From Buchnera aphidicola (Macrosiphoniella sanborni) (GTDB lineage: Bacteria; Pseudomonadota; Gammaproteobacteria; Enterobacterales; Enterobacteriaceae), in contig NZ_CP034864.1 of assembly GCF_005080885.1 (NCBI RefSeq), positions 271,282-335,281 of the forward strand: a stretch of DNA of 64,000 bases, given 5' to 3'. A model generated the notes under the pieces. It saw only the letters and a list, made by a program, of their open reading frames with translations, made no database searches and had not been told where the DNA came from. A program made the translations under genes and the position numbers. The first letter of the stretch is position 1. Each line of letters opens with the position of its first letter. Positions 60,397-64,000 of this stretch are shown one piece after another.

Positions 60397-62076
60397 TTAT
60401 TCAGTATTTTTAGCAGCGTTAAATGCAGCTGTCATAACATTAGAAAAATTATCATTATTTTTTTTATTGTTAGATATTATTGTAGAATCTTTTTTTTCTT
60501 TTTCGTCAGGAATGTGAATTACAAGATAAATTATTCTATTTTTTCGATCAAAACTAGATAATTTTACTAAAATTTTATCTTCAAAATTAAATTGATTGAT
60601 TATTTTTTCAGAATTTACTCGAGGAATATCAGATAATCTAATAATTCCTTCTAAATGAGATTCTGGTAATTGTACAATAATATGTTTTTTATCAATAGAT
60701 TTCACTTTTCCTGTGATAATTTCATTTTTTTTAAAATTAGAAACATATGTGCTAAACGGATCTTCTTCTAATTGTTTAATTCCTAAAGAAATACGTTCTC
60801 TTTCAGCATCTACTTGTAAAACCACGGCAGAGATTTCATCATTTTTTTTATATTTTTTAACTGCTTCTTCACCAGATATTGTCCAAGAAATATCAGATAA
60901 GTGTACTAATCCATCAATTCCTCCATTTAACCCAATAAAAATACCAAAATCTGTAATAGATTTTATTCTTCCAATCACACGTATTCCTTTTTTATGAGTT
61001 TCTGAAAATTCTTTCCATGGATTAATTGTACATTGTTTTAATCCTAAAGAAATTCTTCTTCTTTCTTCATCAATATCTAAAACTGTTACTTCAACGATAT
61101 CGTTTACAGAAACTACTTTAGATGGATGTATATTTTTATTAGTCCAGTCCATTTCTGATACATGTACTAAACCTTCAACACCTTCTTCAATTTCAACAAA
61201 ACAACCATAATCTGTCAAATTTGTAACACGTCCAGTTATTTTTTTTTCTTCTGGATAACGCTTAGAAATATCAATCCATGGATCTTCACCTAATTGTTTT
61301 AACCCTAATGAAACACGTGTTCTGTCTCTATCGAATTTTAAAATTTTTACTTGAATCTCATCTCCTACACTTACAATTTCACTAGGATGTTTTACTCTTT
61401 TCCAAGCCATATCAGTAATATGTAAAAGACCGTCTACTCCGCCTAAATCTACAAAAGCACCATAATCTGTTAGATTTTTTACAATTCCCTTAAGATGAAT
61501 ACCTTCTTGTAAATTTTCTAATAGTTGATCTCGTTCTGCACTATTTTCTGATTCAATAACAGCTCTACGTGAAACAACAACATTGTTACGTTTTTGATCT
61601 AGTTTAATTACTTTAAACTCTAATTCTTTACCCTCAAGATGTATGGTTTCTCGTACTGGACGTACATCAACTAAAGAACCAGGTAAAAATGCACGTATAT
61701 CATTCAATTCAACAGTAAAACCACCTTTAACCTTACCGTTAATAATTCCAGTCACTGTTTTTGATTGTTCATGAGCTTTTTCTAATATTAACCATGCTTC
61801 ATGTCGTTTTGCTTTTTCACGAGATAACAACGTTTCACCAAAACCATCTTCAATAGCATCTAACGCAACATCAATTTCATCGCCTACATTAATATCTATT
61901 ACACCTTGAGAATTTTTAAATTGTTCAGAAGGAATAGAAGATTCAGATTTTAAACCAGCATCAACTAAAACAATATCTTTTTCTATTGCAACGACAATAC
62001 CCCGAATAATTGAACCTGGACGAGTTTTAATCTCTTTTAAAGATTCTTCAAATAATTGAGCAAAAGATTCATTCAT
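60397..62076 (-). CDS. rpsA: 30S ribosomal protein S1
   Basis: 559 residues (E. coli 557). Six S1 OB-fold repeats at about 21-87, 105-171, 192-260, 277-347, 364-434 and 451-520, recognisable by [41 protein letters not shown] and [21 protein letters not shown]. The first two repeats anchor S1 to the ribosome; the others bind mRNA leaders. Codon use is less A/T-extreme than in its neighbours, as expected for a highly expressed gene. Confidence 0.97.
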
Positions 62077-62207: not shown

Positions 62208-62863
62208 TTATATTTCTATTTTTTTTAAAATAATTTCTATTATAGATTTAATAACTTCTGATAAAGTCATATAAGTAGAATCTAATATTATAGCATTTTT
62301 TGGTATGCATAAAGGAGAAAATAATCGATTTCGATCAGATTCATCACGATTCTTCATTTGCATAAATAATTCTTCATAATTTACATGATAACCTTTTTTT
62401 TTAAATTCTATTGCTCTTCGTTGAACACGTACTTCTAAATCAGCATCTAAAAAAAATTTGATCACAGCATCTGGAAATACTGCTGTACCCATATCACGCC
62501 CTTCTGCTATTAAACCTGATAAATATTTTAAAGACCTTTGTTTATTAATTAATATTTTCTTCATATTAGGATAAGTTCCTAATTGAGAAGAAATATTACT
62601 AATTATCTCAAGATGTTTTGTTTTATGAAAAACATCAATAGTTTTTTTTTTATTAATGAGAAATTCAAATTATCTAATAAAAAGATCATATTTTTTTCAA
62701 TAATTTCAATATTTTTATGTAATGCTAAAAATGCTATAAATCGATAAATACATCCTGATTCTAGTAGAAACCAATTTAAATTATGCGCTATTATTTTAGA
62801 AACTGTACTTTTACCGACACCACAAGGACCATCAATAGTTATAATAGGATTTTTGTTTATCAT
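62208..62863 (-). pseudogene. cmk: Cytidylate kinase, interrupted by a -1 frameshift at a 10-A tract (possibly rescued)
   Basis: Phosphorylates CMP and dCMP. The 5' frame (62863 to 62603) gives 86 residues with P-loop GPCGVGKST (12-20) and SGCIYR; the last 12 are out of frame. The 3' frame (to 62208) has GLIAEGRDMGTAVFPDA and RDESDRNRLFSPL. The frames part at ten A in the coding strand (62642-62651). Adding one A gives KKKTIDVFHKTKHLEI and then SSQLGTYPNMKKI, restoring a continuous protein of about 218 residues (E. coli 227). All catalytic blocks are otherwise intact. RNA-polymerase slippage at poly(A) is documented in insect endosymbionts and could restore function; a sequencing error is the alternative. 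Confidence 0.9.
62642..62651 (-). repeat. Ten-A homopolymer at the cmk frameshift
   Basis: T10 on the plus strand, A10 in the cmk coding strand. The reading frame changes exactly here. Length is in the range where transcriptional slippage is reported. Confidence 0.9.
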
Positions 62864-62889: not shown

Positions 62890-64000
62890 TTAATTATTAC
62901 AAATAGATAAAAACTCTTTAAAATAATTCGGAAAAGTTTTTGACACACAACTAGGATTAAGTATATTTACACCAATACCAGATAAACAGATAAGTGAAAA
63001 ACACATAGCTATACGATGATCATTATAAGTATTAATATTAGAATATTGAAAAACTTGAGGAGGAGAAATAGATAAAAAATCTTTTCCTTCTTTAACAATA
63101 GCACCAATTTTTTTTAATTCAATACTCATCGCAGATAGACGATCAGTTTCTTTAACTCGCCAATTATATATGTTTCTAATAGTAGTAGTACCCTGTGCAA
63201 ATAAAGCAACTATAGCAATAGTCATTGCGCTATCTGGAATATGATTCATATCTAAATTTATTGCTGTTAATGTATTACGAATACAAGTAATAGAATAATC
63301 TTCCCATAAAATTTTTGCTCCCATTTTTTCTAAAACATGAGCAAAATTTATATCACCTTGAATACTTTTTTTTCCAATACCAACAACTTTAACTGTACCA
63401 CCTTTAATAGCAGCAGAAGCTAAAAAATAAGATGCTGAAGAAGCATCTCCTTCAATTTTATATTCTCCTGGAGTAGTATATGATTGTTTTCCTTTGATAT
63501 AAAAAATACGATAAGAATCGTGCGTAATATTTACTCCAAAAGATTTAATTAAACTTAGAGTAATATCAATATATGGTTTTGAAATTAAATCTTGTTTAAT
63601 AAAAATAGTTGTATCTTTCAAAGCAAGTGGTGCACTCATTAATAAAGAAGTTAAAAATTGACTAGAAATATTACTATTTAAAATAATAGAACCACCAATA
63701 AAACCACCTTTAGTTCGTATTGGAGGATATCCAACATTTTTTTGATATTCAATATCAGCTCCTCCTTGTTGTAATGCATCTACTAAATCTTTTATTGGTC
63801 TTTCATGCATTCTATCTTCGCCATGAAGAAAAACATCATTTTTTTTTAAAGATAATACTGCAAGCAAAGGTCGAATCGCAGTACCTGCATTTCCTAAATA
63901 CAATGATACTGATTTAGATAGAAAAAAAGATTGTCCTATACCTTCAACATAACACGTTTTTTTATCATCAGATAAACTATAATTAATGCCTAATTTTATT
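62890..64000 (-). CDS. aroA: EPSP synthase, 3' part (5' end outside window)
   Basis: 3-phosphoshikimate 1-carboxyvinyltransferase of the shikimate pathway. The frame stays open to the right edge, giving 369 visible residues; about 58 N-terminal residues lie beyond. An internal TTG at 63903 is not the start, since conserved sequence (for example [11 protein letters not shown]) continues upstream. [30 protein letters not shown] with the catalytic Asp, and [13 protein letters not shown] are present. It precedes cmk by 26 bp in one leftward unit. Confidence 0.96.

Follow-up and report, generated by a model that had tools for sequence, protein, structure and literature searches.

The kinase gene cmk of Buchnera aphidicola (Macrosiphoniella sanborni) is split at a run of ten A and may be rescued by RNA polymerase slippage under weakened constraint

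The cmk gene of Buchnera aphidicola (Macrosiphoniella sanborni), here G000, is read in two frames that meet at an A-run, and we lean slightly toward the view that it is rescued by RNA polymerase slippage at this run, with weakened constraint in G000. Selection behind the tract, reversion of the reading frame and an old out-of-frame ancestor together would make long-term slippage rescue the best explanation for the group as a whole.

The gene was found in a window of 64 kb, i.e., the whole stretch of 64,000 nucleotides that was analyzed, where the gene order on the minus strand is aroA, cmk, rpsA and cmk runs from 62863 to 62208. Both neighbors are intact and in the same orientation: upstream, aroA (62890 to 64000) extends beyond the window end and is complete in L056; downstream lies rpsA (60397 to 62076). 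The front open reading frame (ORF) of cmk (62603 to 62863, minus strand; 86 aa) begins with ATG, carries the P-loop GPCGVGKST and matches the family model TIGR00017 with 71 bits; it exits the kinase frame at the A10 tract and stops after 13 codons. The back ORF (62208 to 62564, minus strand; 118 aa from the first ATG; TIGR00017, 115 bits) carries the CMP-binding and lid parts, AEGRDMGTAVFPDA and RDESDRNRL. The shift site lies at 62642 to 62651 on the minus strand, seen as T10 on the plus strand, in agreement with a prior sequence-only reading in which the two cmk frames met at ten A. Between the tract and the back ATG lie approximately 25 to 26 codons (62565 to 62641, minus strand; TIDVFHKTKHLEIISNISSQLGTYPN) that are readable only with a frame shift; the sequence-only reading had noticed these hidden residues, which do exist, and had assigned them to the third frame, which is wrong, as they share the frame of the back ORF and precede its first ATG.

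When one A is added at the tract, cmk reads through without a break for 216 aa beyond the first residues, and the product scores 197 bits against TIGR00017 over residues 5 to 210 and 190 bits against PF02224. Given the TIGR00017 cut-off of 135.55 bits, both halves fall below it, while the shifted full-length reading passes as Cmk in both models. The earlier proposal that a single A restores the kinase is borne out by these scores; its addition that the product matches E. coli Cmk throughout is not, since the protein lacks several residues in the region of the tract. The break at this run of at least nine A on the coding strand is the single lesion of the gene, and a whole-genome search (632,796 bases, three contigs) returned the same two cmk pieces only, with a second cmk absent; the sequence itself was looked at in the window and in selected further stretches.

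The survey of the genus covered 36 genomes, G000 and 35 relatives, with cmk in frame in 15, out of frame in 14 and degraded or without a match in 7 (G001, G005, G008, G010, G016, G018 and G019). In all 14 out-of-frame genes, one single-base change at one A-run gives full length, with no other stop or shift, and 13 of them break at the same run, of 9 to 11 A. A break at the same run in 13 of 36 genomes, each otherwise free of lesions, is far beyond chance. The degraded genes of G001, G008 and G010 contain many stops, and there are no intermediates between these and the lesion-free split genes. Addition of one A is what 13 of the 14 genes need; the sole case of the opposite direction, G021 (L077), needs the loss of one A or the gain of two. 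The gene of G023 (L079/L050) breaks at another, more upstream A10, near base 137, again as a single lesion with open sequence behind it, and its sister lineages G001, G008 and G010 carry degraded cmk.

At the position of the G000 tract, the Acyrthosiphon/Macrosiphum relatives have A9 in homologous register, and the extra A of G000 comes from a preceding T->A change. The same out-of-frame configuration, A9 followed by CT in register, is common to G000 and six relatives, and this argues against an assembly or sequencing error in which the true genome would read A11. Some sequencing methods do make errors in long A-runs, as described for 454 reads (PMC3890641); even so, we consider an error of this kind very improbable.

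Selection was assessed with a codon model with branch classes on a species tree from SerS, SerC, AroA and RpsA. Five genomes (G006, G029, G020, G032 and G011; clade X) are out of frame by descent, the posterior for an out-of-frame ancestor being 0.97 to 0.99. Behind the tract, omega in clade X was 0.14, equal to that of in-frame branches (0.14), and omega = 1 was rejected (p = 7.8e-24). In the stretch before the back ATG (62565 to 62641), omega was 0.16 overall and 0.14 in clade X, where omega = 1 was again rejected (p = 1.4e-5). The back part of cmk in clade X, pre-ATG residues included, is under full purifying selection. These data also bear on whether the two ORFs could be used separately, with translation restarting at the ATG at 62564 to give a split enzyme. 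The back ORF does possess an ATG, but a restart leaves unexplained why some 25 residues before it are as constrained as the rest, and we give this arrangement hardly any credence. Retention of A9 or of AAA codons in the tract itself showed no excess, with 33 to 46% expected by chance.

The history of the frame state was better described when reversion was allowed: the log-likelihood was -31.4 with reversion versus -35.4 without, a gain of 4.1 (p ~0.004), and on 60 of 60 bootstrap topologies the gain was 3.1 to 9.1 log units, computed with equal branch lengths because bootstrap trees carry none. Estimated rates of cmk loss did not differ between the states, at 0.92 out of frame and 0.90 in frame, both poorly constrained. 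The ancestor of G000 and the Acyrthosiphon group was reconstructed as out of frame with a probability of 0.83 to 0.93. According to PMC3164680, the Uroleucon-Acyrthosiphon split is dated at 41 ± 7 My, and dead Buchnera genes are usually deleted over such a time span. In the common ancestor with Acyrthosiphon, some 41 My ago, cmk was probably out of frame already. As a mutational hot spot, the run may have been hit independently in some lineages, which could account for part of this sharing; the A9 and CT flank held in common argues for descent in most cases. Altogether, as far as genome comparison reaches, the results show that single-A changes have long been concentrated at this A-run in Aphidinae Buchnera, with the gene broken and restored there many times, that cmk can stay out of frame for long periods and still return to frame, and that purifying selection continues to act on the protein part behind the run.

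Gene order, plasmids and the tree agree in placing G000 within Buchnera, where it belongs to the Uroleucon/Macrosiphum group, as sister to G016 and G019. Omega of its back part was 0.36, differing from the background of 0.16 (p = 0.028) and from omega = 1 (p = 0.016), on a terminal branch that takes in the Uroleucon-group stem because the sister genomes are without cmk. Omega of the front part was 0.17 (omega = 1 rejected, p = 0.003), and the controls on the same branch were not raised (aroA, 0.05; serC, 0.10). The G000 gene also carries five changes at otherwise invariant sites, the highest count of any genome. The raised omega and these changes therefore suggest that constraint persists in G000 but is weaker. 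The sequence-only reading had argued from well-conserved downstream sequence against an old null mutation; that cmk is more than a dead gene is strongly supported for the clade, where selection behind the tract is purifying, other lesions are absent and the frame has reverted, whereas in G000 itself the back part is relaxed, although still distinguishable from neutrality. Rescue in G000 is less certain, and may be weakening, because of this relaxed back part and the loss of cmk in both nearest relatives.

The same observations are what would be expected of a young pseudogene, in which the tract slipped, or rescue ceased to matter, in the G000 lineage and the gene is heading for deletion as in its sisters. 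The degradation or loss of cmk in 7 of 36 genomes adds to this reading, since the gene is therefore dispensable. Against it, omega = 1 is rejected for both parts of the G000 gene, there is no second lesion, and the out-of-frame state was probably inherited from the ancestor common with the Acyrthosiphon group rather than newly acquired. By pseudogene criteria, then, G000 cmk has no further lesion and a constraint that is reduced yet present, and we regard a young pseudogene as a real but lesser possibility.

In the slippage rescue that we favor, RNA polymerase copying the A-run would add one A in a fraction of cmk transcripts, and these transcripts would be translated into full-length Cmk. A lower dose of the enzyme would suffice, so that repair of the DNA would be only weakly favored. 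In G000 this rescue would probably still be working, or have stopped only recently, and the enzyme would be under weaker constraint. RNA polymerase slippage is, on these comparative grounds, the most likely rescue agent. In Buchnera RNA, nearly all insertions are of a single A or T within runs, and they become exponentially more frequent as runs lengthen to 11 (PMC5574713). That poly(A) frameshifts are rescued in insect endosymbionts, as the sequence-only reading stated, is indeed on record: in other genes of aphid and ant symbionts, measurements showed 12 to 50% of transcripts to be corrected (Tamas 2008, as relayed in PMC5009743). Counting against slippage rescue, a transcription-error survey of another Buchnera strain, LSR1, reported no frame restoration (PMC5574713).

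The identical protein, with IKKKTID at the junction, would arise if the ribosome, instead of RNA polymerase, slipped by -1 on A AAA AAA. The slippery heptamer is present in the zero frame, inside ATA AAA AAA AAA, and exactly a -1 shift is required in 13 of the 14 broken genes; the remaining gene, that of G021, requires the opposite shift. In G000, a possible hairpin, GATGTTTT...AAAACATC, begins 5 nt behind the tract (z = -1.8), and a gap of 5 bases behind the slippery site is the typical spacing of -1 frameshift stimulators. A conserved hairpin behind the tract was not found, however, as z scattered around 0 in the 13 out-of-frame genes, nor was a Shine-Dalgarno-like motif (GGAG/AGGA) in the 24 bases before the tract. 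A stimulator may not be needed, because plain A-run slippage needs none, and we hold translational rescue to be unlikely, if conceivable. The G000 element, GATGTTTT-loop-AAAACATC, is an 8-bp inverted repeat at 62612 to 62636 on the minus strand and is absent as a conserved element in relatives.

Compared with dnaX-type -1 ribosomal frameshifting, cmk shares the slippery A AAA AAA, and 13 of the 14 genes likewise need a -1 shift; it differs in that conserved stimulators were not found, one gene goes in the other direction and a dual-product design is not apparent. The Buchnera and Blochmannia cases of Tamas 2008, as conveyed by PMC5009743 and PMC3164680, resemble cmk more fully: a single A-run indel in an AT-rich endosymbiont, conservation on both sides and restoration of the frame by one additional A. 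In those cases corrected mRNA was measured, whereas for cmk the correction is inferred from evolution alone; for cmk, in turn, age and repeated reversion of one site were tested over 36 genomes. Homopolymer frameshift genes number 8 to 18 per genome in Aphidinae Buchnera, with murF repeatedly affected, according to PMC3164680; the lesion type is that of cmk, and several lineages are hit in one gene. The paper treats frameshift genes as inactivations, possibly regulatory, while for cmk the present analysis demonstrates reversion and continued selection once the frame had shifted; cmk may itself be in Table S3 of that paper. Homopolymer-frameshift genes are merged in PMC3890641, with cmk among the genes of an M. 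persicae strain. Homopolymer frameshifts in endosymbionts and their possible rescue were thus known, and what is new for cmk are the quantitative tests of selection after the shift, of reversibility and of likely age.

We also offer, tentatively and with rather less confidence than the rescue itself, a broader reading in which the cmk A-run would be a reversible frame toggle in Aphidinae Buchnera, more than 40 My old, with out-of-frame genes that are functional, revert and are lost no faster. The reading frame in the DNA would be near-neutral because slippage at expression buffers it. In symbiont genomes, frameshifted genes like cmk are classed as pseudogenes; if it is true that 14 of 29 retained cmk genes can be out of frame for tens of My and are still selected as proteins, the gene inventories and metabolic models built for reduced genomes would contain a systematic error. 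The cmk run further provides a comparative test of the need for correction, with A8, A9, A10 and A11, in and out of frame, at one locus in many hosts.

Within the window, approximately 50 sense-strand A-runs of at least nine A lie inside ORFs; part of these were compared with homologues, and the sole gene-breaking one found was that of cmk. Two other candidates for broken genes were rejected: era (2361 to 2900), thought to be a second split gene, was an artifact of ORF calling through which a single frame reads, and smpB/tadA (885 to 1855) proved to be two overlapping but separate intact genes. A scan of contigs for Cmk returned only distant Cmk genes. In a wider sample of the family (198 genomes, 154 genera), cmk was found in 178 genomes, and outside Buchnera almost all the matches listed were single open frames. 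The 400-kb genome of another genus, G094, gave two separate cmk matches and possibly contains another split cmk.
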